Part shown: one piece after another, positions 18,972-33,925 of the stretch
Numbering within the stretch: position 1 is the stretch's first letter
Layout of the letters: the number at the start of each line of letters is the position of its first letter
Origin: Streptomyces sp. NBC_01454
Lineage (GTDB): Bacteria; Actinomycetota; Actinomycetes; Streptomycetales; Streptomycetaceae
DNA: 64,000 bases
Assembly: GCF_036227565.1 (NCBI RefSeq)
Contig: NZ_CP109460.1
Span: 3,162,001 to 3,226,000 of the forward strand
Reading direction: 5' to 3'
Position numbers and translations under genes: made by a program
The notes under the pieces: generated by a model
Told to the model about the DNA's origin: nothing
Seen by the model: the letters and a program-made list of their open reading frames with translations, nothing else
Databases searched by the model: none

Positions 18972-20291
18972 TCACCGTTGCTCCGCCATGTCCGGTATGG
19001 GCAGCGGTCGTTTCTCCAGGGCGGCCGCCATGACGTCGGGGAACAGATCGGGCGTACAGGCGAACGCCGGTGCATCCAGGGCCGCAAGGGCCGCCGCGTG
19101 GTCCCGGTCGTAGGCCGGTGTCCCCTCGTCGGACAGTGCGAGCAAGGTCACGAACTGCACCCCGGACGCCTTCATCGCGGCGACCCGCTTGAGCATCTCG
19201 TCGCGGATACCGCCCTCGTAGAGGTCGCTGATGAGGACCACGACGGTTTCGGCGGGGCGGGTGATCCGGGACTGGCAGTAGGCGAGCGCGCGGTTGATGT
19301 CCGTGCCGCCGCCGAGCTGGGTGCCGAAGAGCACGTCGACCGGGTCGTCGAGTTGGTCCGTCAGATCGACGACCGCGGTGTCGAAGACGACCAGACGGGT
19401 GTCGATGGCCCGCATGGACGCCAGCACCGCGCCGAACACCGAGGCGTGGACGACGGAGGCGGCCATCGACCCGGACTGGTCGATGCAGAGCACCACTTCC
19501 TTCTTCACGGACTGCGCGGCCCGGCCGTAGCCGATCAGCCGCTCGGGGACGACCGTGCGGTACTCGGGGAGGTAGTTCTTGAGGTTCGCGCGGATCGTGC
19601 GGTTCCAGTCGATGTCGCGGTGGCGCGGGCGGCTGATCCGCGCGGAGCGGTCCAGCGCACCGGTGAGGGTGGCGCGGGTGCGGTTCGCCAGCTTTCGCTC
19701 CAGCTCCTCGACGACCTTGCGGACGACGGCGCGTGCGGACTCCCTGGCCGTCTCGGGCATCAGCCTGTTGAGCGAGAGCAGGGTCCCCACCAGGTGGACG
19801 TCCGCTTCGACGGCCTCCAGCATCTCCGGCTCCAGCAGCAGCGCGGACAGCCCCAGCCGGTCGATGGCGTCACGCTGCATCACCTGCACCACGGAGGACG
19901 GGAAGTACGTACGGATGTCGCCGAGCCAGCGCGCCACCCCGGGCGCCGACGCCCCGAGCCCCGCCGCACGCCGGCCGCCGTCGGCCCTCTTGCCGCCGTT
20001 GCCGCCCTCCCGGCCGTAGAGCGAGGCCAGCGCCCCGTCCATCGCGGCATCCCGCCCCCGCAGCTCGCACCCCGTCCCGTCGGCCCCGCCACCACCGAGC
20101 ACCAGCCGCCAGCGACGCAGCCGTTCGGCCTCGGAGGTGGCGGGGCCGGGGGCGGCGGGAACGGCGGGGGGCGCGGCGGAGGGGGTGGGGGTGGCCGGGG
20201 CGGGTGTGGGGGCGGGTGCCGGAGTGGGTGTCGGGTCGGGTGCCGGGGCGGGTGTCGTTGTCGCCGACGGGCTCGGTGTCGTGCGGGTCAT
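18972..20291 (-). CDS. VWA-domain protein of the MoxR/DUF5682 cassette
   Basis: A 439-residue cytosolic protein. The first 45 residues are a Pro/Thr/Ala repeat. The C-terminal VWA domain has a complete metal-binding MIDAS: DQSGS at 271-275, the Thr of LGGGT near 330 and the Asp of LISD near 356. The middle (residues 100-250) is helical, with many charged residues. VWA proteins of this type act with MoxR AAA+ ATPases as substrate or adaptor subunits, as in ViaA with RavA. It is the third gene of the operon, overlapping the DUF5682 stop by 4 bp. No signal peptide. Confidence 0.92.
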   Translation of the reverse strand: MTRTTPSPSATTTPAPAPDPTPTPAPAPTPAPATPTPSAAPPAVPAAPGPATSEAERLRRWRLVLGGGGADGTGCELRGRDAAMDGALASLYGREGGNGGKRADGGRRAAGLGASAPGVARWLGDIRTYFPSSVVQVMQRDAIDRLGLSALLLEPEMLEAVEADVHLVGTLLSLNRLMPETARESARAVVRKVVEELERKLANRTRATLTGALDRSARISRPRHRDIDWNRTIRANLKNYLPEYRTVVPERLIGYGRAAQSVKKEVVLCIDQSGSMAASVVHASVFGAVLASMRAIDTRLVVFDTAVVDLTDQLDDPVDVLFGTQLGGGTDINRALAYCQSRITRPAETVVVLISDLYEGGIRDEMLKRVAAMKASGVQFVTLLALSDEGTPAYDRDHAAALAALDAPAFACTPDLFPDVMAAALEKRPLPIPDMAEQR

Positions 20292-22843
20292 GTTCGTGCC
20301 CCCATGAGGTCGTCGGCCGATCGGGTCGGGTCCGCCGGAGGTGCGTGGAGCGGCCGGGCGGTGGGCGGTTGTGGGTCGTGGGCCGCGGCGGGTGGGGTGG
20401 GCGGACCGGGGAGTGCGGCCGGCTCGGGTGGCGCAGCCGGCCCGGGCGGCTCACTGTCGAAGCCCTGGTGTCCGATTCCCAGGAGCAGGCGCAGCGTGGG
20501 GAGTACGGCGGCGGCGCGGTCGCGGTCCAGGCCCGGGCCGAAGCCGGGCGCGGCGGCGTCGGGGGCGTCACCGGGCGACCGGTGGGACGGCGTCGTGGGC
20601 CCGCGGCGGATCAGCTCGCCGAGGGTGCGCCGCACTCCGGCCTCGTACTCGGCGAAAGTTCTGCGCAGCAGCGGCAGCACGTCCGTGAACGCCGCGTCCG
20701 GCACCCCGGTCAGCCAGCCGTCGACGAGGGCGAGCAGCCGTGCGTCGTGGACCAGCAGCATGCCGCCGTCCCCGCCTCCGACGAAGCCCTCGATCCAGCC
20801 GGCGGCATCGACGGGCGGGGTGCCGGGCGAGAGGGCGAGGCCCATCAGCCGCTCGGCGCCCTCCTCGCCCAACTCACCGTCGTCCAGCAGGAGTCTGACG
20901 GCGCGGCCGCGGAGCAGTCCCGGTATGGCGTCCCGTTCGCTCACCGTGCGCAGTACCGCGGCCCACCGCGCCCGCAGGCCGTGGGGGGCGGGCCTCTGTC
21001 CGGGCTCCGGCCGGGCGAGCAGGCCCACGGCCTGATGGGTGGCGTCGAGCGGTTCGCGCAGGGCGGCGGCGCCTTCGGCGTCCAGGCCCGCGCAGGCCGG
21101 CGGCAGTCCGACGAAGACCCGCTCGACCAGGCCCATGGCGACCTCGCGGAGCGCCGCGGATTCCGTGCCGCGGACATCGCCGTAGCGCACGGAGCGGACG
21201 AGGGCGGGCAGTGCCCGGGCGAGATGGCCCACGTCCGCGTCAAGCGCCGCACGGTCGGCCAGTGCCCGCATCACCACCGGCAGCGCGTCGGGGAGTCCGG
21301 CGAGCAGACAGTGTTCGGCCAGCGCCGTCACCCCCGCCAGCGTGGCCGCCTCCAAGCCCTCGGACACGGCTTTGGCGGTGGCGGCCGAGAGCACCGTCGT
21401 GCCCCAGATGCCGGCCTCCGCGACCCGCACCGAGAGTTCGGGCTCCCAGCGCAGCCGCCAGGTCTCCCGGAAGGTGCCGGTGCCGGCGCGGGAGTGGGCG
21501 GGCTCTCCCCAGGGGATGCCGAGCAGCCGCAGCCGGTGCAGCAGTCGGCTGCGGGCGGCGTCGGTCTCGTTGCGCAGATCCAGCTCCCGTTCCCGCTCCA
21601 CCGCCTCCGGGGTGAGCCGGAGCGTGCGCCGGATACGGGCGATGTCCCGCTGCAGCGGGACCGCGGGGGCGTCCTCGGGGACCTCGCCCAGCACCTCACC
21701 GACCACCAGCCGGTCGTGGATCAGCAGGGACGGGGCGTCGGAGCCGTCGCCCATGACGGCCCGGACCGCGTCCTCCAGCTCCGTCAGCCCGGGCAGCGGG
21801 CGGCCGCGCACCGTGGCCAGCCCCTCGGCGAGCCGCACCGCCTCGATGACATGCGCCGACGAGACGGCGTAGTCCTCCTCCCGGAGCAGCCCGGCGACCT
21901 TGGTCAGCCAGCGTTCGACGGGGCGGTCGGGGGCGCTGAAGAGATGGCCGTACCAGCCGGGCGAGGCGACACCGGCGCCGTACCCGCTGTGCCGGGACAG
22001 GCGCCGGTGCGTCCAGGGCACCCAGGTCACCGTGGCCTTCACCTTCGGCAGACCCTTGAGCAGCTGCCGGTCGGCGGCCATGGTGGTGCGCCGCGTCAGG
22101 GCCGGGACGTGCCAGGCTCCGCACACCACGGCGATGCCGTCCCCGAACTCCTTGCGCGCGGCCCGCAGTCGGAGCCGCATATGGGCCTCGCGCACCGGGT
22201 CACGGTCATGGCCGCCGTCGCCGTAGGTCTCCCGCAGCGCGCCCATCGCCTCGGCGAGCGCCGCGAACGGCGCAGCCGCGTCGGGCTCTTCCTCGCACCC
22301 GGCTCCGCTCGGCGCGCGGGAGGTCCCCCCGCCTCCGCGGTGCTCGACCACGTCCTCCCACCAGCGCTCGGGGTCGTCGTACCCGGCCGTCGCTGCCAGC
22401 ACGCGGATCGGGTCGACCCGCACCTCGGCCGGGGTACCGCCGGTCCGGGCGGGCCCGCAGGCGGCTTCCCCGGGCGCCTCGTCTCCGGGCCGCTCCCCTG
22501 CCGTCCGCTCCTCGTCCTCCGTCATCGCCAGGGAGTGGGCCGCGGGCAGATCGATGAAGCGGACGGGGACGCCGTGGTGCAGGGCCCAGCGCATCGCCAC
22601 CCACTCCGGGGAGAACTCGGCCAGCGGCCAGAATGCCGCGCGGCCGGGGTCGTCCTGCGCGTGGGCGAGCAGCGCGACCGGTGGCCGCATCCCCTCCTGG
22701 GCCGCCAGCGGCACCAGTTCGTCCGCCTCCGGCGGCCCTTCGATCAGGACCGCGGCGGGGGTGTACTGCTCCAGGGCGGCCCGCACCGCCCGCGCCGATC
22801 CGGGGCCGTGATGCCGCACCCCCAGCAGCAGCGGCCCGGTCAT
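20288..22843 (-). CDS. DUF5682 protein, TraB/TIKI/EreA-like N-terminal domain
   Basis: An 851-residue soluble protein. Residues 1-260 look like the TraB/TIKI/EreA-type fold. They have a first GxxH motif in GVRHHGPGS (8-16), an acidic LIEGPPEAD (33-41) and a second GxxH in CGAWHVPAL (241-249). Those His and Glu positions form the metal or active site in TIKI and EreA relatives; activity here is inferred. The remaining 590 residues are helical with no motif that I recognise. It is the middle gene of moxR-DUF5682-VWA, with ATGA overlaps on both sides, so a fixed stoichiometry is likely. Confidence 0.9.
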   Translation of the reverse strand: MTGPLLLGVRHHGPGSARAVRAALEQYTPAAVLIEGPPEADELVPLAAQEGMRPPVALLAHAQDDPGRAAFWPLAEFSPEWVAMRWALHHGVPVRFIDLPAAHSLAMTEDEERTAGERPGDEAPGEAACGPARTGGTPAEVRVDPIRVLAATAGYDDPERWWEDVVEHRGGGGTSRAPSGAGCEEEPDAAAPFAALAEAMGALRETYGDGGHDRDPVREAHMRLRLRAARKEFGDGIAVVCGAWHVPALTRRTTMAADRQLLKGLPKVKATVTWVPWTHRRLSRHSGYGAGVASPGWYGHLFSAPDRPVERWLTKVAGLLREEDYAVSSAHVIEAVRLAEGLATVRGRPLPGLTELEDAVRAVMGDGSDAPSLLIHDRLVVGEVLGEVPEDAPAVPLQRDIARIRRTLRLTPEAVERERELDLRNETDAARSRLLHRLRLLGIPWGEPAHSRAGTGTFRETWRLRWEPELSVRVAEAGIWGTTVLSAATAKAVSEGLEAATLAGVTALAEHCLLAGLPDALPVVMRALADRAALDADVGHLARALPALVRSVRYGDVRGTESAALREVAMGLVERVFVGLPPACAGLDAEGAAALREPLDATHQAVGLLARPEPGQRPAPHGLRARWAAVLRTVSERDAIPGLLRGRAVRLLLDDGELGEEGAERLMGLALSPGTPPVDAAGWIEGFVGGGDGGMLLVHDARLLALVDGWLTGVPDAAFTDVLPLLRRTFAEYEAGVRRTLGELIRRGPTTPSHRSPGDAPDAAAPGFGPGLDRDRAAAVLPTLRLLLGIGHQGFDSEPPGPAAPPEPAALPGPPTPPAAAHDPQPPTARPLHAPPADPTRSADDLMGART

Positions 22844-24006
22844 GCGCTCACCTCACGGCAGGCGCGGTAGAAGTCCTTCCAGCCGTCGCGCTCCCGCACC
22901 ACCGTCTCGAGGTACTCCTGCCAGACGACCCGGTCCGCGGCCGGGTCGCGGACCACGGCGCCCAGGATGCCCGCGGCCACGTCCCCGGAGCGCAGCACGC
23001 CGTCCCCGAAGTGGGTGGCCAGCGCCAGGCCGTTGGTCACCACCGAGATGGCCTCGGCCGTGGAGAGGGTGCCGGAGGGCGACTTGAGCTTGGTCCGGCC
23101 GTCGGCGGTGACGCCGGAGCGCAGCTCGCGGAAGACCGTGACGACCCGGCGGATCTCGTCCAGTCCCTCCGGTCCGGCCGGGAGATCCAGCGAGCGGCCG
23201 ATCTGCCCGACCCGGCGCGAGACGATGTCCACCTCCTCGTCGGGGGTCGCGGGCAGCGGCAGCACGACGGTGTTGAAGCGGCGGCGCAGCGCACTGGAGA
23301 GTTCGTTGACCCCGCGGTCGCGGTCGTTGGCGGTGGCGATCAGATTGAAGCCGCGGACGGCCTGCACCTCCTGCCCCAGCTCGGGGACCGGCAGGGTCTT
23401 TTCCGACAGGACCGTGATGAGCGAGTCCTGGACGTCGGCGGGGATCCGGGTCAGTTCCTCGATGCGCGCGGTCATGCCCTGCGCCATCGCGCGCATCACG
23501 GGGCTCGGGACCAGCGCCTCGCGGCTGGGGCCGTTCGCGAGCAGCTGGGCGTAGTTCCAGCCGTAGCGGATCGCCTCCTCGGGGGTGCCCGCCGTGCCCT
23601 GCACCAGCAGGGTGGAATCGCCGCTGACGGCGGCAGCCAGATGCTCGGACACCCAGGTCTTGGCGGTACCGGGCACGCCGAGCAGGAGCAGCGCGCGGTC
23701 CGTGGCGAGGGTCGTCACCGCGACCTCGACGATCCGGCGCGGGCCGACGTATTTCGGTGTGATGACCGTGCCGTCCGCGAGCGTGCCGCCGAGCAGATAG
23801 GTCGCGACCGCCCAGGGCGAGAGCCGCCAGCGCTCCGGCCGCGGCCGGTCATCGGCCTTGGCGAGGGCCGCGAGCTCCGCCGCGAAACTCTCCTCGGCAT
23901 GCGGCCGCAGCACCGCCCCGCCGACGGGTTCCGCTGTCGTCCCGCCCGCCGGATTCCCGGTGTCCTCCGCCGCGTCGCCGGCCGCCCTGAAGCTGTTCCC
24001 GGACAT
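22840..24006 (-). CDS. MoxR-family AAA+ ATPase
   Basis: A 388-residue protein starting MSGNSFRAAGD behind GAGGGGGAAAC. Walker A is GVPGTAKT (110-117). The Walker B position reads ARIEEL (180-185), with Glu where Asp is usual. Sensor 1 is ATAND (224-228) and the arginine-finger region is SSALRRRF. The C-terminal lid domain follows. MoxR ATPases remodel partner complexes together with VWA proteins. The first gene of the leftward operon. Its promoter region, shared with the SWIM gene, carries damage-type promoter elements (24073-24095). Confidence 0.95.
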   Translation of the reverse strand: MSGNSFRAAGDAAEDTGNPAGGTTAEPVGGAVLRPHAEESFAAELAALAKADDRPRPERWRLSPWAVATYLLGGTLADGTVITPKYVGPRRIVEVAVTTLATDRALLLLGVPGTAKTWVSEHLAAAVSGDSTLLVQGTAGTPEEAIRYGWNYAQLLANGPSREALVPSPVMRAMAQGMTARIEELTRIPADVQDSLITVLSEKTLPVPELGQEVQAVRGFNLIATANDRDRGVNELSSALRRRFNTVVLPLPATPDEEVDIVSRRVGQIGRSLDLPAGPEGLDEIRRVVTVFRELRSGVTADGRTKLKSPSGTLSTAEAISVVTNGLALATHFGDGVLRSGDVAAGILGAVVRDPAADRVVWQEYLETVVRERDGWKDFYRACREVSA

Positions 24007-24072
24007 GTTTCCCCCTCGTCTCGCGTCTGCGGCGGCACCCCGCGAATTCGCTGCCGGCCGCCTGCGGAATCA

Positions 24073-24095
24073 AGCCTGCACCAGACCACTGACAA
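24073..24095 (-). promoter_or_regulatory. Near-match RecA-NDp/PafBC-type promoter facing moxR
   Basis: Read leftwards: TTGTCAGTG (24095-24087), 8 bases, then CAGGCT (24078-24073). The consensus is TTGTCRGTG-N8-TAnnnT, so only the first -10 base deviates. Transcription would start near 24066, giving a leader of about 60 bases with a good ribosome site before moxR. Confidence 0.6.
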
Positions 24096-24144
24096 CGCCC
24101 CGAAAACCGTGCCTGACCTGGGAGTTCGGGGCGGGCCGGGGAGA

Positions 24145-24167
24145 TTGTCAGTGGCACGTCGTAGCGT
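24145..24167 (+). promoter_or_regulatory. Perfect RecA-NDp/PafBC-type DNA-damage promoter of the SWIM gene
   Basis: TTGTCAGTG, 8 bases, TAGCGT is a full match to the LexA-independent damage promoter described in mycobacteria. The -10 ends 7 bases before the ATG at 24175, so the SWIM mRNA is probably leaderless. With the opposing element it forms the 10-bp inverted repeat CCACTGACAA/TTGTCAGTGG. Confidence 0.75.
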
Positions 24168-24174
24168 CGGGGAC

Positions 24175-25572
24175 ATGAATCCGCAGGGGGAACGCTGGAC
24201 GACGGATCAGGTGCGCGCGCTGGCGCCTGACGAGGTCTCACGCAAGGCGGGCGGCAGGCTCGCGGCGCCCGGGCCGTGGTCGGAAACGGGCGCGGACGAC
24301 GCCGCGGTGTGGGGGCAGTGCAAGGGCAGCGGCAAGAAGCCGTACCGGACCGTCGTGGACCTCACCGGCCCGGCCTACAGCTGTAGTTGTCCGAGCCGCA
24401 AATTTCCGTGCAAGCACGCGCTGGGACTGCTGCTGCTCTGGGCGGGCGACGAGGGGGCGGTGGCGGCCGGGGAGCCTGCGCCGTGGGCGGGCGAGTGGCT
24501 GGCCGGGCGCCGCGAGCGCGCCGGGCGGTCCGCGGGTGCGCCGCCGGGTGCGGGTGCCGGGTCGCGGGCGCCCGCCGACCCGGAGGCGGCCGAGCGGCGG
24601 GCCGCCCGGCGGCTGCGGCGGATCGGGGCCGGCGCCGTGGAGCTGGAGCAGCGCCTGGAGGATCTGCTCCGGTCCGGCCTGGCCTCGGCCGGCCACACCG
24701 GAGGGGGCGCCTCCCGCCCGGGCGGTTCCGGGAACGGGGGCGGCTCCTGGGACGAGACCGCCGCCCGCATGGTCGACGCCCAGGCTCCCGGACTCGCCTC
24801 GCGGGTACGCGAGTTGGGGGCGGTGGCGGCGTCCGGCCCCGACTGGCCGGCCCGGCTGCTGGAGGAGTGCGCGCTGCTGCACCTCCTCGATCAGGGATTC
24901 CTCGGCCTCGACCGACTGCCGGCCCCGCTCGCGGCGACGGTCCGTTCCCGGGTGGGACTCACCACGGAGGCGGCGGACCTGCTGACCGGGCCCGATGCGG
25001 CGACGGTCCGGGACCGCTGGCTGGTGCTCGCCCAACAGGACGGCGCTGACGGCACGTTGCTCACCCGCAGAATCTTCCTGCGGGGCGAGCGGACCGGCCG
25101 GATGGCGCTGCATCTCTCGTTCAGCGGCGCCAACCGCCCGCCGGACCTGGCCCTGCCGCCCGGTCTGATCCTCGACGCGGATCTCGCCTACTACCCCGGC
25201 GCCCGTCCGCTGCGTGCCGCCCTGGGCGAGCGGCACGCCCCGGCAGTCCCCGGTCCGGTGCCACCCGGCTGCGGCATCGATGCCGCGCTGGCCGCGTATG
25301 GCGATGCGCTGCGCGACGACCCGTGGCTGGATTCCTGGCCCGTGGTACTCACCGACGTCACCCCGGTACCGGGCCGCGGCGGGTCGGGCGGGCAACTGGC
25401 CGATGCGGACGGGGAGTCGGCGCTGCCGCTGGATCCGCGCTGTACCGGCAGTGCGAGCCGCTGGCAGCTGGCCGCGATATCGGGCGGGGCGCCCGTCACG
25501 GTCTTCGGCGAATGCGGCCACCGCGGCTTTCTGCCGCTGACCGTCTGGGACCCCACCCCGGTGTCCCTGTGA
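24175..25572 (+). CDS. SWIM zinc-finger protein of the MoxR/VWA cassette
   Basis: A 465-residue protein. The SWIM motif CxCxnCxH is complete: Cys70, Cys72, Cys79 and His81 in YSCSCPSRKFPCKHALG. SWIM domains bind DNA or proteins and occur in recombination factors and MuDR transposases. A Gly/Ala/Arg linker (115-200) is followed by a mixed alpha/beta C-terminal half without a motif that I recognise. No ribosome site is needed if the message is leaderless: the -10 TAGCGT lies 7 bases before the ATG. Divergent from moxR and followed by DUF5691 after a 127-bp gap. Confidence 0.9.
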   Translation: MNPQGERWTTDQVRALAPDEVSRKAGGRLAAPGPWSETGADDAAVWGQCKGSGKKPYRTVVDLTGPAYSCSCPSRKFPCKHALGLLLLWAGDEGAVAAGEPAPWAGEWLAGRRERAGRSAGAPPGAGAGSRAPADPEAAERRAARRLRRIGAGAVELEQRLEDLLRSGLASAGHTGGGASRPGGSGNGGGSWDETAARMVDAQAPGLASRVRELGAVAASGPDWPARLLEECALLHLLDQGFLGLDRLPAPLAATVRSRVGLTTEAADLLTGPDAATVRDRWLVLAQQDGADGTLLTRRIFLRGERTGRMALHLSFSGANRPPDLALPPGLILDADLAYYPGARPLRAALGERHAPAVPGPVPPGCGIDAALAAYGDALRDDPWLDSWPVVLTDVTPVPGRGGSGGQLADADGESALPLDPRCTGSASRWQLAAISGGAPVTVFGECGHRGFLPLTVWDPTPVSL

Positions 25573-25640
25573 CCCGCGCCCCGGCCCGCCGGCCCCCGGC
25601 CCCGACCGCCACGGCTCCCCACCCTCCGCGGAAGCCGTCC

Positions 25641-25685
25641 CCACCGATGCCACTGATGCCACTGATGCCACTGATGCCACCGATG
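25641..25685. repeat. Five tandem 9-bp repeats between SWIM and DUF5691 genes
   Basis: Units CCACYGATG occur five times in tandem just before the DUF5691 ribosome site. They add several ATG codons out of frame with the DUF5691 start. Possibly a variable minisatellite. Confidence 0.75.
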
Positions 25686-25699
25686 CCTGGAGGACGGGC

Positions 25700-27448
25700 A
25701 TGACGAGCAACACCCACGCCCTGAGCAGCACGAACAGCACCTCACCCACTACACCCGCTTCTCCCGCCTCACCCCTCGTGCCCGCCTCACCCGCCTCGGC
25801 CGCCTCGGCCGCCCCCGCTGACTGGTCCGCCCTCGTGAGTGCCGCGCTGCTCGGGACCGAGCGCCGGACCCCGCCGGTGGCGATGCGGGCCGGGCAGGAC
25901 GGCGCGGCGGCGCTCCTGGACGCGGCCGCGGTGAGCACGGTGCGCCGGCGCGCCGCGCTGCGCCCCGCGCCGGCCGGCGAGCGGCCCGCCCCGGCCCCGG
26001 CCGATCCACGTCCCGTGCTGCCGCCCGCGGCACGCCGCCGGCTGTCCCTCCTGCTCGCCGACCGCGGCGCCGCCGGCGGCAGCCGCCGCGGGACGGCCCC
26101 CGACCTCACCGAACTGCTCCCCCAGTGGCTGGCCGCCGCCGGCGAATACGGCTACCGCGCCCCGGAGGCGCTGCTTCCGGCGCTGCTCGACGCCGCCCGG
26201 GCCCGTACGGATCTGCGGCCCGCCGCGCTGACGCTGGCGGGACCGCGTGCCCTGTGGCTGGCGCGGCTCAACGACGAATGGAAGTTCGCGCTGCGCGGGA
26301 TCGGAGGCCCGGCCGGGTTCCCCGTCGGTGACGACCCCGAGGGCATACGGCAGCGGTGGGAGGAGGGCCTGTTCGCGGAACGGGTCGCCCTGCTGACCAC
26401 GCTGCGCCGGCACGACCCGCCGGCCGGCCTGGCCCTGCTGGCCACGACCTGGCCCACGGAACGGGCCGAGGACCGCCTGATGTTCCTCGACTCGCTGCGC
26501 GAGGACCTCTCGGCGGCGGATGAGCCCTTCCTCGAACAGGCACTGTCCGACCGCAGCCGCAACGTCCGCGCCACGGCCGCCGAGTTCCTCTCCGCCCTGC
26601 CCGGTTCCGCGTTCGCGGCCCGTATGGCCGAGCGTGCGCACACCTGCATCGGCCCGGACCGCATGTCGGGCAGCACGATGATCGCGGTGGAGGCGCCACA
26701 CGAATGCGATGCGGCGATGCAACGGGACGGCATGGCGCCCACGCCGCCCTCCGGACGGGGTGAACGCTCCTGGTGGCTGGGCCAGTTGGTGGAGGCGGCG
26801 CCACTGGAGGGCTGGCGCGCACGCTTCGGGGGCCGCGCGCCGGCGGCGATCGTCGCGCTGCCGGTGGCCGACGACTGGCGGACGGAGCTGCACGACGCCT
26901 GGTGCCGCGCCGCCGTGCGCCAGCAGAACGCCGACTGGGCGCGGGCGCTGCTGGGTGCGCCGGGCGCACCGTCCCCGGCCTCCGACGTCTCACCGGCCGG
27001 CTCGTCGCGGGATCTGACGAAGCTGCTCGCCGTGCTGCCCGCGGACGAACGGGCCCGGTGGGTGGCGGAGTTCATCGCGGCGCACGGCCTGTCGGACGCC
27101 TTCCGGATGCTGGGGGTGTGCGCGGTCCCCTGGGCGGAGCCGCTGGGCCGCGCGGTCGTCGACGCGCTGGACATCGCCCGGGACGCGGGCAGCTACCCCT
27201 GGAGCTTCAGCGGGGTGATGGGCCTGGCCGAGCGGTGTCTGGACCCGGCGGCCGCGGACCGTCTCGACATGCTCACCGCCGTCACCGACGAGCCCGAGGG
27301 CGCCTCACCGGGCTCCGGCGGCTACTGGTCCGAGGCCTTCCAGCGCCTGGTCACCACCCTGCGGCTGCGCGCCACGATGCGCGCCGAGCTGGCGCCGCCG
27401 CCCGCCGCCGCCGATCCGGCCGGGGAGCCCGGCCGGAGGGCGCCATGA
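25700..27448 (+). CDS. DUF5691 protein, helical-repeat-like, of the MoxR/VWA cassette
   Basis: A 582-residue soluble protein starting at ATG 25700 behind TGGAGG. The first 40 residues are Ser/Thr/Pro/Ala-rich. The rest is Leu/Ala/Arg-rich and strongly helical, with HEAT-like stretches such as LSDRSRNVRATAAEFLSALP near residue 280, so it is probably a scaffold. It is the second gene of the rightward arm (SWIM-DUF5691). DUF5691, SWIM, MoxR, DUF5682 and VWA genes travel together in Streptomyces, as I recall. The role is inferred from the company it keeps. Confidence 0.88.
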   Translation: MTSNTHALSSTNSTSPTTPASPASPLVPASPASAASAAPADWSALVSAALLGTERRTPPVAMRAGQDGAAALLDAAAVSTVRRRAALRPAPAGERPAPAPADPRPVLPPAARRRLSLLLADRGAAGGSRRGTAPDLTELLPQWLAAAGEYGYRAPEALLPALLDAARARTDLRPAALTLAGPRALWLARLNDEWKFALRGIGGPAGFPVGDDPEGIRQRWEEGLFAERVALLTTLRRHDPPAGLALLATTWPTERAEDRLMFLDSLREDLSAADEPFLEQALSDRSRNVRATAAEFLSALPGSAFAARMAERAHTCIGPDRMSGSTMIAVEAPHECDAAMQRDGMAPTPPSGRGERSWWLGQLVEAAPLEGWRARFGGRAPAAIVALPVADDWRTELHDAWCRAAVRQQNADWARALLGAPGAPSPASDVSPAGSSRDLTKLLAVLPADERARWVAEFIAAHGLSDAFRMLGVCAVPWAEPLGRAVVDALDIARDAGSYPWSFSGVMGLAERCLDPAAADRLDMLTAVTDEPEGASPGSGGYWSEAFQRLVTTLRLRATMRAELAPPPAAADPAGEPGRRAP

Positions 27449-31421: not shown

Positions 31422-33893
31422 CTACAGCTTCTCCACCGGCGCGTACCGCAGCAGCAGCCGCTTGGGCTTCTCGCCGCCGAAGTCGATGGTCGCCTCGGCG
31501 TTGTCGCCGCTGCCCTTGACGCCCACGACCGTGCCGAGCCCGAAGCTGTCGTGGGTGACGCGGTCGCCGACGGTCAGCGAGACGACCTGGCGGTCCTTGG
31601 CCCGGCGGGTGGCGAAGCCGCTCGGCCCCTTGGTGCGCGACGACAGCGCGGAGCCCAAGCCGCCACCGGCGCCGCCCGAGAGCCCGCCCATCGACGCGGA
31701 CGGCGTCGCCTGGCCCGTGCGCTTCCACTCCACGTACTCGCCCGGGATCTCCTCCAGGAACCGGGAGGGCGGGTTGTACGAGGGCTGGCCCCAGGCGCTG
31801 CGCATCGTCGAGCGGGTGACGTAAAGCCGCTCGCGGGCGCGGGTGATGCCGACGTAGGCCAGCCGGCGCTCCTCCTCCAGCTCCTTGGTCTGGCCCAGCG
31901 AGCGCATGTGCGGGAAGACGCCGTCCTCCATGCCGGTCAGGAAGACGACCGGGAACTCCAGGCCCTTGGCGGTGTGCAGCGTCATGAGGGTGATGACGCC
32001 GCTGCCGTCCTCGTCCTCGTCCGGGATCTGGTCGGAGTCGGCGACCAGGGCGACCTGCTCCAGGAAGTCGGAGAGGGTGCCCCCCGCAACGGCAGTGCCG
32101 GGTGCCTCCGCATCCACACCGCGGTCCTGCTCGAATTCCAGGGCCACGGCGGCGAGTTCCTGGAGGTTCTCGATCCGGGTCTCGTCCTGCGGGTCGGTGG
32201 AGGCCTGGAGCTCGGCGAGGTAGCCCGTGCGCTCCAGGACCGCTTCCAGGACGGTGGCGGGGCCGGCGCCGGACTCGACGATGGTGCGCAGCTCCTCCAT
32301 GAGGACGTTGAAGCGCTTGACGGCGTTGGCGGAGCGGGCCGCCATGCCGTACGCCTCGTCGACCCGGCGCAGCGCCTGCGGGAAGGTGATCTTCTCGCGC
32401 CCCGACAGGGCGTCGATCATCGCCTCGGCGCGGTCGCCGATGCCGCGCTTGGGGACGTTCAGGATGCGGCGCAGCGGGACGGTGTCCTCGGGGTTGGCGA
32501 GCACCCGCAGATACGCGAGGACGTCGCGGACCTCCTTGCGCTCGTAGAAGCGCACTCCGCCGACGACCTTGTAGGGCAGCCCGACCCGGATGAAGATCTC
32601 TTCGAAGACCCGGGACTGGGCGTTGGTGCGGTAGAAGACGGCGACGTCGCCGGCCTTGGCGTCGCCGGCGTCCGTCAGGCGGTCGATCTCGTCGGCGACG
32701 AACTGCGCCTCGTCGTGCTCGGTGTCGGCGACATAGCCGGTGATCCCGGGGCCGCTGCCGGCGTCGGTCCAGAGGTTCTTGGGGCGGCGGTTCTCGTTGC
32801 GCTCGATGACGGCGTTGGCGGCGGACAGGATCGTCTGCGAGGAGCGGTAGTTCTGCTCCAGCAGGATCGTGGTCGCGTCGGGGTAGTCCTCCTCGAACTG
32901 GAGGATGTTGCGGATGGTGGCACCGCGGAAGGCGTAGATCGACTGGTCGGCGTCGCCGACGACGCACAGCTCGGCCGCCGATTCGGCGGGGCCGACCAGC
33001 TCGCGCACGAGGGTGTACTGGGCGTGGTTGGTGTCCTGGTACTCGTCGACGAGGACATGGCGGAAGCGGCGGCGGTAGTGCTCGGCGACATCCGGGAAGG
33101 CCTGGAGCAGACTGACCGTCGTCATGATGATGTCGTCGAAGTCCAGGGCGTTGGCCTCGCGCAGCCGGGCCTGGTACATCGCATACGCCTCGGCCAGCGT
33201 CTTCTCGAACCCGTCGGCGGCCGTCCCGGCGAAGCTCTCCTCGTCGATGAGCTCGTTCTTGAGGTTGGAGATCTTCGCGCTGAAGGACTTGGGCGGGTAG
33301 CGCTTGGGGTCCAGATCCAGATCGCGGCAGACCAGCGCCATCAGGCGCTTGGAGTCGGCGGCGTCGTAGATCGAGAAGGAGGAGGTGAAGCCCAGCTTCT
33401 TGGACTCGCGGCGCAGGATGCGGACGCAGGCGCTGTGGAAGGTGGAGACCCACATGGCGTTCGCGCGCGGGCCGACGAGCTCCTCGACGCGCTCCTTCAT
33501 CTCGCCCGCGGCCTTGTTGGTGAAGGTGATCGCGAGGATCTGGCCGGGGTGGACATGGCGCTCGGCCAGCAGATGGGCGATGCGGTGGGTGAGCACCCGG
33601 GTCTTGCCGGAGCCGGCGCCGGCGACGATCAGCAGCGGGCCGCCGGTGTGCACCACGGCGGCCTTCTGCTCGTCGTTGAGCCCCTCGAGCAGCGCGGCGG
33701 CATCCACGGCGGGGCGGGCGGCGCCGTCGCGGTAGTGGGTCTCTCTGGGGCCGGGCGCGTCGAATTTCCCGCCGAAGAGGTCGGCGGGGATCTCCTCGGG
33801 GGCTGGCTCGTGCCCGTCCTCGGGAGGCGGCGGGTGCTCCTCGCCCTTGTGGCCGAGGTCCGCCAGGAAGCTGTCGTCAAAGAGGCTGCTCAT
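31422..33893 (-). CDS. pcrA: UvrD/PcrA-type ATP-dependent DNA helicase
   Basis: An 823-residue SF1A 3'-5' helicase for repair, rolling-circle replication and conflict clearance. Walker A is GAGSGKTRV near residue 113. Motif II is VDEYQDTN, and QNYRSS and GLEFPVVFL-like motifs follow. The last 60 residues (DRVTHDSFGLGTVVGV to YAPVEKL) are the Tudor-like RNA-polymerase-binding tail seen in PcrA. A 75-residue acidic N-terminal extension is typical of actinobacteria. The upstream DNA carries a perfect RecA-NDp-type promoter (33903-33925) that leaves almost no leader before the ATG. Confidence 0.97.
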   Translation of the reverse strand: MSSLFDDSFLADLGHKGEEHPPPPEDGHEPAPEEIPADLFGGKFDAPGPRETHYRDGAARPAVDAAALLEGLNDEQKAAVVHTGGPLLIVAGAGSGKTRVLTHRIAHLLAERHVHPGQILAITFTNKAAGEMKERVEELVGPRANAMWVSTFHSACVRILRRESKKLGFTSSFSIYDAADSKRLMALVCRDLDLDPKRYPPKSFSAKISNLKNELIDEESFAGTAADGFEKTLAEAYAMYQARLREANALDFDDIIMTTVSLLQAFPDVAEHYRRRFRHVLVDEYQDTNHAQYTLVRELVGPAESAAELCVVGDADQSIYAFRGATIRNILQFEEDYPDATTILLEQNYRSSQTILSAANAVIERNENRRPKNLWTDAGSGPGITGYVADTEHDEAQFVADEIDRLTDAGDAKAGDVAVFYRTNAQSRVFEEIFIRVGLPYKVVGGVRFYERKEVRDVLAYLRVLANPEDTVPLRRILNVPKRGIGDRAEAMIDALSGREKITFPQALRRVDEAYGMAARSANAVKRFNVLMEELRTIVESGAGPATVLEAVLERTGYLAELQASTDPQDETRIENLQELAAVALEFEQDRGVDAEAPGTAVAGGTLSDFLEQVALVADSDQIPDEDEDGSGVITLMTLHTAKGLEFPVVFLTGMEDGVFPHMRSLGQTKELEEERRLAYVGITRARERLYVTRSTMRSAWGQPSYNPPSRFLEEIPGEYVEWKRTGQATPSASMGGLSGGAGGGLGSALSSRTKGPSGFATRRAKDRQVVSLTVGDRVTHDSFGLGTVVGVKGSGDNAEATIDFGGEKPKRLLLRYAPVEKL

Positions 33894-33902
33894 CGCCCAC
33901 CG

Positions 33903-33925
33903 AGTCTAGGCCGCCGCACTGACAA
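33903..33925 (-). promoter_or_regulatory. Perfect RecA-NDp/PafBC-type promoter of pcrA
   Basis: Read leftwards: TTGTCAGTG (33925-33917), 8 bases, TAGACT (33908-33903). It matches TTGTCRGTG-N8-TAnnnT at every defined base. The -10 is 9 bases before the ATG, so the leader is at most a few bases. Confidence 0.75.

Follow-up and report, generated by a model that had tools for sequence, protein, structure and literature searches.

The 64,000-nt stretch of the genome of Streptomyces sp. NBC_01454 analyzed here (NZ_CP109460.1, positions 3,162,001 to 3,226,000; hereafter, the window) carries a cassette of five genes that encode a MoxR-type AAA+ ATPase, a DUF5682 protein, a VWA protein, a SWIM zinc-finger protein, and a DUF5691 protein (Table 1). 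The five families are all uncharacterized or poorly characterized, and the cassette is built around the MoxR motor. A leftward trio is joined by 4-bp overlaps at 20288-20291 (VWA/DUF5682) and 22840-22843 (DUF5682/MoxR), and it diverges from a rightward pair across a gap of 168 bp between the moxR ATG (24006) and the swim ATG (24175). The open reading frame (ORF) list reproduced these coordinates and this layout as a first-pass annotation of the sequence had given them, and each ORF matched the Pfam family under which it had been named. The swim frame stays open far toward its 5′ side, to 22633 (979 aa from there). We chose the ATG at 24175 as its start, which lies 7 nt after a -10 element and agrees with the alignment of homologues.

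TABLE 1 Genes and candidate promoter sites of the cassette, in window positions
Feature	Positions	Strand	Evidence
VWA (CoxE-type) protein, 439 aa	18972..20291	(-)	Pfam VWA_CoxE, 7.9e-61
DUF5682 protein, 851 aa	20288..22843	(-)	Pfam DUF5682, 5.6e-290, 727/727 profile positions
MoxR-type AAA+ ATPase, 388 aa	22840..24006	(-)	Pfam AAA_5, 1.4e-37
RecA-NDp/PafBC-type site for moxR-DUF5682-vwa, TTGTCAGTGGTCTGGTGCAGGCT	24073..24095	(-)	Exact match to the relaxed pattern
RecA-NDp/PafBC-type site for swim-DUF5691, TTGTCAGTGGCACGTCGTAGCGT	24145..24167	(+)	Exact match
SWIM zinc-finger protein, 465 aa, CSCPSRKFPCKH at 70-81	24175..25572	(+)	Pfam SWIM, 1.2e-06
DUF5691 protein, 582 aa	25700..27448	(+)	Pfam DUF5691, 1e-174

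The five families form one conserved unit across bacteria

A scan of an 84,980-species collection with a DUF5682 alignment returned at least 590 relatives, and we analyzed the best 80 loci, a selection rather than a census. They fall into what we take to be Cyanobacteria, Chloroflexi, Planctomycetes, Acidobacteria, Verrucomicrobia, Proteobacteria, Bacteroidota, Actinobacteria, and other phyla. Complete five-family sets were found at 64 of the 80 loci, and at 55 of the 60 that were adequately flanked (at least 5 kb upstream and 1.5 kb downstream), with all five genes within 10.6 kb. The genes followed the single-strand order SWIM-DUF5691-MoxR-DUF5682-VWA in 57 of the 64 complete sets, and the divergent layout was confined to five, every one in Streptomyces or Streptantibioticus; the layout in the window therefore appears to have arisen locally by rearrangement of the more widespread operon. 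Of the remaining two complete sets, L112 had the VWA gene first, and L132 deviated only because its fused ORF confuses the sorting. SWIM and DUF5691 were fused in one ORF at five loci (L070, L092, L121, L132, and L030), a DUF5682-VWA fusion (P0011) was seen in one sequence only, and on a Deinococcus plasmid, the five genes are annotated in operon order, with one small gene in addition.

Among 149 actinobacterial genomes, DUF5682 was found in 10 and DUF5691 in 10 (9 above the cut-off), with both in 9, DUF5682 alone in 1, and DUF5691 alone in 1 (below the cut-off). The two genes lie 1 to 3.5 kb apart in all nine genomes that carry both, and their co-occurrence has a Fisher p of ~1e-12, uncorrected for kinship; by genus, six have both and one each has DUF5682 or DUF5691 alone. 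The first-pass annotation had named a failure of the families to co-occur beyond chance as its own refutation, and neither this value nor the completeness of the flanked loci refutes it. In Streptomyces, 76 of 81 genomes had a MoxR match at an E value of ≤1e-80. The five families form one real conserved unit. That the arms are two unrelated operons that merely share a promoter region, a reading that we give hardly any credence, would fit the divergent layout in the window and the E. coli control genome, which has DUF5682 and no DUF5691 match; it is opposed by the 57 co-directional sets and by the Fisher value. Chance adjacency was rejected as a general account, as gene order elsewhere refutes it.

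Beyond the five, every gene family is limited to at most 10 of the 80 loci; the most frequent extra neighbor, with 10, is by eye an ABC-transporter ATPase. A YehI/DUF4132 homologue follows the VWA gene in five Bacteroidota loci (L094, L119, L136, L140, and L143). At L031 to L033 (family f26), shorter DUF5691 relatives occur as open frames of 317-352 aa that match approximately the first 30-43% of the profile. At L072, L084, and L114, two in cyanobacteria and one in Bernardetiaceae, DUF5682 lies without the other four genes nearby despite the flanks.

Both arms carry candidate RecA-NDp promoter sites

We scanned the window with the pattern TTGTCRGTG-N8-YANNNT, relaxed from what we take to be the published RecA-NDp (PafBC-type) consensus, of the TTGTCRGTG-N8-TAnnnT type. 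Each arm of the cassette has its own site (Table 1). The -10 element on the moxR side, CAGGCT, fits the relaxed YANNNT only, and that on the swim side ends 7 nt before the ATG, so the swim-DUF5691 mRNA is probably leaderless. The whole window holds 4 sites with at most one mismatch versus 0.18 expected, and a third exact site, at 33903-33925 (-), lies 9 nt before a UvrD/PcrA-like helicase gene (31422-33893, -).

The sites are conserved with the cassette. In the best 30 of the 76 Streptomyces genomes with a MoxR match, the window's own locus included, the site was kept on the moxR side in 30/30 and on the swim side in 27/30. A site with at most one mismatch was present 5′ of SWIM in 9 of 16 actinobacterial loci (four in Streptomyces, three in Amycolatopsis, and one each in Catenulispora and Sphaerisporangium) versus 0 of 49 others (p = 3.6e-07, uncorrected for kinship); outside Streptomyces and Streptantibioticus, the count was 5 of 11 actinobacterial loci. 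These matches and their conservation bear out, as far as sequence goes, the earlier suggestion that the promoter logic points to DNA damage, and they support placing the cassette under DNA damage control.

In the window's genome, exact sites number 64 and the reversed-pattern control gave 0. In the same genome, tandem WYL genes follow a gene for Pup ligase (pafA); the motif and this pafA-WYL-WYL locus liken the genome to the PafBC/RecA-NDp regulon of mycobacteria and of SCO6735 in S. coelicolor. For the 62 sites outside the cassette promoter, 40 downstream ORFs, picked by GC content at third codon positions and distance, were scanned against Pfam, the other 22 being doubtful gene calls; this choice was not blind, because the first 60 residues had already been printed. 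Replication, repair, or recombination families accounted for 17 of the 40, and 23 were other or unmatched. The 17 are RecA, an Lhr-type helicase, two UvrD, two O6-methylguanine-methyltransferase-like proteins, two clamp-loader proteins, PolA, UvrB, MgsA, a DinB-type protein, UDG, endonuclease VII, topoisomerase IV/gyrase A, RecD2-HHH, and HU. Of the 62 picked ORFs, 23 begin 6-7 nt after the site, and their mRNAs are likely leaderless. Site-bearing genes also include mycothiol-related (L181, L197, and L203), NADAR (L159), and MazG (L179) genes. A RecA-NDp site also precedes the gene for a WGR and beta-propeller-like protein (L188:12-1469, -), near which methyltransferase and uvrB genes have sites of their own.

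That the motif is an ordinary strong promoter or a chance match, with the cassette outside any damage regulon, draws on the fact that the motif was scanned as a general literature consensus and that the support consists of sequence sites. We rejected this very improbable account because the motif precedes recA, uvrB, polA, dinB-type, uvrD-type, and other genes and because the reversed control gave 0 against 64. A RecA-NDp promoter with UV induction has also been published for SCO6735 (PMC5087735, in the parts available to us).

According to the available parts of the respective papers, RecA-NDp is the PafBC motif and occurs beyond mycobacteria (PMC8223512), and mycobacterial PafBC is activated by single-stranded DNA (PMC11804915). 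All 41 Streptomyces genomes searched carry sites, 22 to 79 each versus 0 to 3 in the control, suggesting that Streptomyces in general have a PafBC-type regulon, a point left open in the accessible parts of a 2022 S. venezuelae study (PMC9380542). By its promoter sites, the cassette would be a member of this regulon; a literature search on listings and passages found no paper that places it there.

Related clusters in Streptomyces and sites in other phyla

A diverged Streptomyces cluster (L230-L239) encodes a zinc-finger protein, a VWA protein, MoxR, and a distant DUF5682. An exact RecA-NDp site stands at the cluster start in 10/10 genomes and is the sole exact site in each stretch. The zinc-finger frame starts within ~60 nt after the site in most, and a conserved zinc-finger peptide follows it by 114 to 232 nt in all ten; the zinc-finger gene was located in every genome, including L233-L235 and L237-L239, where ORF picking had missed or misframed it. 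Pfam gave no match for the DUF5682-like protein of L235.

The Yeh-type cluster in Streptomyces opens with a DUF4132 (YehI-type) protein, which is a WGR-DUF4132 protein in L226 (genome G128). The YehI-type gene was found in 11 of 121 Streptomyces genomes (L240-L250), and 9 of these 11 have an exact site upstream, 55 to 111 nt from the start of the aligned region. The exceptions are L241, which has no sense-strand site, and L250, which has a 1-mismatch site farther up. The alignments of L243, L247, L248, and L249 begin only at residue 70 to 103 and thus do not reach the WGR part. Downstream, within 1.5 kb, 7 of the 11 loci (L240-L242 and L244-L247) have a MoxR gene, and 6 of these 7 have an exact site. 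No DUF4132 was found in the window's genome. On an S. atratus plasmid, the first gene of a cluster is preceded by a 1-mismatch site.

Candidate damage-type sites were also seen at single copies in two other phyla. On a Deinococcus taeanensis plasmid with a complete cassette, a palindrome resembling the radiation/desiccation response motif (RDRM) at L251:4732-4748 lies 19-20 bp before swim; no other sequence in 20 kb matches the published DdrO consensus with two mismatches or fewer (0.10 expected). This consensus, the second of two RDRM patterns used, was taken from PMC8533742, of which parts were available. This cassette has a 78-aa gene between MoxR and DUF5682. The yeh cluster of E. coli K-12 begins with yehF, and 9 bp before this gene is a LexA-like site, CTGGATAAAATTACAG (L001:450-465). 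It has one core mismatch and an all-A/T spacer and is the only site of its quality in 20 kb (0.017 expected); strict SOS-box searches gave no match. At a Delftia locus (L144), a LexA-type box, CTGTGAAAATATACAG, lies 390 bp 5′ of the SWIM start region, the sole one in 14 proteobacterial loci.

MolR is presumably a yeh gene. It is mentioned as described in the LexA regulon in the available passages of PMC8533742, which also report that DdrO depletion upregulates dr2173 (WGR) and drA0165-drA0166 (DUF4132) in D. radiodurans. These genes share the WGR and DUF4132 domains with the Yeh-type clusters, a comparison made at the level of domains. The WGR domain of PARP2 joins DNA ends (PMC8190142, in part).

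Conserved residues and predicted folds

The metal ion-dependent adhesion site (MIDAS) of the VWA protein, D271xS273xS275...T330...D356, is intact as first noted, its residues being kept in 71 to 73 of 73 homologues. MoxR has a Walker A motif (GVPGTAKT), a Walker B-like EE183-184, N227, and R242/R243. The Walker A, sensor, and Arg residues are kept in at least 71 of 72 homologues, and the Walker B-like pair is EE in 72/72 and in E. coli YehL. The two proteins thus combine an AAA+ core bearing the sensor Asn and Arg finger with a linked VWA protein bearing MIDAS DxSxS-T-D, as in known MoxR/VWA pairs. In the SWIM protein, C70, C72, C79, and H81 (CxC...CxH) are each present in 62 of 64 homologues.

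DUF5682 has two near-invariant GxxH motifs, G8-H11 and G242-H245, plus E35; G8, H11, H12, E35, G242, and H245 are each kept in 79 or 80 of 80 homologues. The AlphaFold model of the window protein (pLDDT 86.8) has an alpha/beta N-terminal domain and a helical C-terminal half. Two GxxH motifs and a Glu are what we take to be the signature of TIKI/TraB-type hydrolases, and DUF5682 resembles the TIKI/TraB/GumN and erythromycin-esterase hydrolases in these motifs and in the alpha/beta domain. However, hhalign comparisons of residues 1-345 with one TraB protein and with an erythromycin-esterase alignment were not significant (P of 0.069 and 0.81). The TraB/TIKI label given to DUF5682 in the first-pass annotation therefore holds as a resemblance of motifs and lacks profile support, and we call the protein a putative hydrolase. 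A PDB sequence search with the DUF5682 profile gave a single match (E of 0.54), and one with the VWA protein gave two weak matches to an unrelated-looking region.

DUF5691 is predicted to be a HEAT/ARM-like alpha-solenoid, as read from the homologous half of the AlphaFold model of a Phytohabitans SWIM-DUF5691 fusion (pLDDT 91.6). Foldseek and VIA-align returned generic helical-repeat neighbors only for the DUF5682 and SWIM-DUF5691 models, and the matches to the full-length DUF5682 model were filled by its helical half.

Comparison with known systems

The closest likeness in gene content is the E. coli yehL-yehM-yehP-yehQ run, which also encodes MoxR, DUF5682, VWA, and SWIM proteins. Identities are 38% for MoxR-YehL, 38% for VWA-YehP, and 27% over 604 aligned columns for DUF5682-YehM; the SWIM protein and YehQ have the Pfam motif in common and no significant pairwise match. 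Unlike the cassette, the yeh cluster lacks DUF5691 and has the WGR-type yehF and the DUF4132 gene yehI upstream. By similarity and gene content (no tree was used), the cassette belongs with the YehL subfamily and yeh cluster, DUF5691 being an addition. Because a Streptomyces genome (G128) holds a separate Yeh-type cluster (L226), the cassette looks like a sister type of the Yeh-type cluster, again with no tree behind it. The YehL subfamily of MoxR is named, with no function given in the passages available, in PMC3893208. The earlier claim that no known pathway covers the set needs qualifying, four of the five families being those of yehLMPQ. In the literature searched, no paper containing the name DUF5682 or DUF5691 was found, and, in the parts available, the names YehL to YehQ had incidental mentions only.

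NorQ/NorD and RavA/ViaA share with the cassette a MoxR motor and a VWA/MIDAS partner, and NorQ was matched by sequence search (2.5e-08). Their studied clients are respiratory enzymes, whereas the cassette adds DUF5682, SWIM, DUF5691, and a damage-type promoter. The cassette may thus be read as a cofactor-maturation chaperone unrelated to repair, in which MoxR-VWA puts metal into DUF5682 or a respiratory/molybdoenzyme client and the damage promoter provides stress timing. Studied MoxR/VWA pairs mature metalloenzymes (PMC9976466 and PMC3893208, in the parts available), and others have linked MolR-type proteins to molybdate (PMC8533742, likewise). Nevertheless, we consider this unlikely in view of the sparse neighborhood, where an ABC-transporter ATPase is the commonest extra gene and a YehI/DUF4132 homologue recurs after VWA in five loci, and of the damage-type sites at three diverged Streptomyces clusters and at one copy each in two other phyla.

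MoxR-vWA ternary conflict systems likewise combine a MoxR and vWA core with a further component, which is VMAP, iSTAND, or a beta-propeller; in the cassette, the further components are DUF5682, SWIM, and DUF5691, and Pfam found none of the former as a third component, a bpMoxR match remaining beneath the cut-off (23 of 27 bits). That the cassette is a conflict or anti-phage system set off by DNA damage is, in our judgment, rather improbable. It would agree with the proposal of other MoxR-vWA systems as conflict systems (PMC7159879, in the parts available), the relatives on plasmid records (36 records), and a distant DUF5682 relative in one human-fecal phage record (MT835988.1, 10644-12770, 28.5% identity). 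However, a search with the PADLOC models gave one weak match, IetA, to MoxR (E of 0.009), which does not assign the set to a modeled system, so the defense option of the first-pass annotation gains little. The presence in 76/81 Streptomyces genomes, the same five families at 64/80 loci, recurrent neighbors that, read by eye, include no defense-like gene, and the absence of "SWIM" and "TraB" from the main text of PMC7159879, as far as available, also speak against it.

DISCUSSION

We propose, with a probability of roughly 0.6, that the five genes encode one conserved machine made in the RecA/LexA-independent (PafBC-type) DNA damage response of Streptomyces. The MoxR protein would form an AAA+ hexamer, and the VWA protein would plug its ring, with the MIDAS metal site holding the client. 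A VWA finger that plugs the MoxR ring and a MIDAS that grips the client have been proposed for NorD on NorQ (PMC9976466, in the parts available), and it is by analogy with this mechanism that we suggest a motor acting on DUF5682. DUF5682, usually encoded between MoxR and VWA, would be the main client or partner, possibly a metal-dependent hydrolase that the motor loads, activates, remodels, or moves. The SWIM zinc finger and the DUF5691 solenoid would act as a targeting arm, directing the complex to nucleic acid that is damaged or blocked or to a protein bound there, and the machine would be induced after damage. Computation establishes that the genes are present and conserved as a unit, that their motifs are intact, and that the divergent damage-type sites exist and are conserved; from this, we infer a single physical complex, its hydrolase chemistry, its target, and its induction by damage.

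Several observations weigh against this proposal. It is built on computed genes, motifs, and sites, and the enzyme status of DUF5682 is itself inferred, no Foldseek match at an E value of ≤0.001 having been obtained for the DUF5682 or SWIM-DUF5691 model. Five of the 60 well-flanked loci are incomplete (L072, L084, L085, L114, and L127). The wider family can do without DUF5691, which was not detected in E. coli or in two paralogous clusters. Nor does every locus have the site: none with at most one mismatch was seen 5′ of SWIM in 7 of 16 actinobacterial loci, and none lies directly upstream of the paralogous clusters L227 and L228 or of the non-Streptomyces L229 (G124). Only two LexA-type boxes were found 5′ of SWIM in 45 loci from five non-actinobacterial groups, 1 in 14 proteobacterial loci (L144) and 1 in 7 Chloroflexi loci (L080). 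In E. coli, yehH, yehI, and yehK lie between yehF and yehL, so co-transcription of yehF with yehL is unproven. As reported in the parts available, SCO6735, a published RecA-NDp gene, showed no phenotype in survival of UV or MMS (PMC5087735), and the PafBC motif of M. smegmatis did not turn up in an initial search of S. venezuelae (PMC9380542).

More broadly, we lean slightly toward regarding MoxR-VWA-DUF5682 machines with a zinc-finger arm as an unrecognized class in the DNA damage response that crosses phyla and may have been placed independently under the control of PafBC (Actinobacteria), DdrO (Deinococcus), and LexA (E. coli). Its types would be the five-gene DUF5691 type, the Yeh type with WGR-DUF4132, and the third Streptomyces type. 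MoxR-VWA pairs have so far been known as maturation chaperones or proposed conflict systems. If our proposal is true, bacterial genome maintenance would gain a remodeling step, and five poorly characterized families and the E. coli yeh cluster would have a role that can be tested, with yehLMPQ as a laboratory model of the class.

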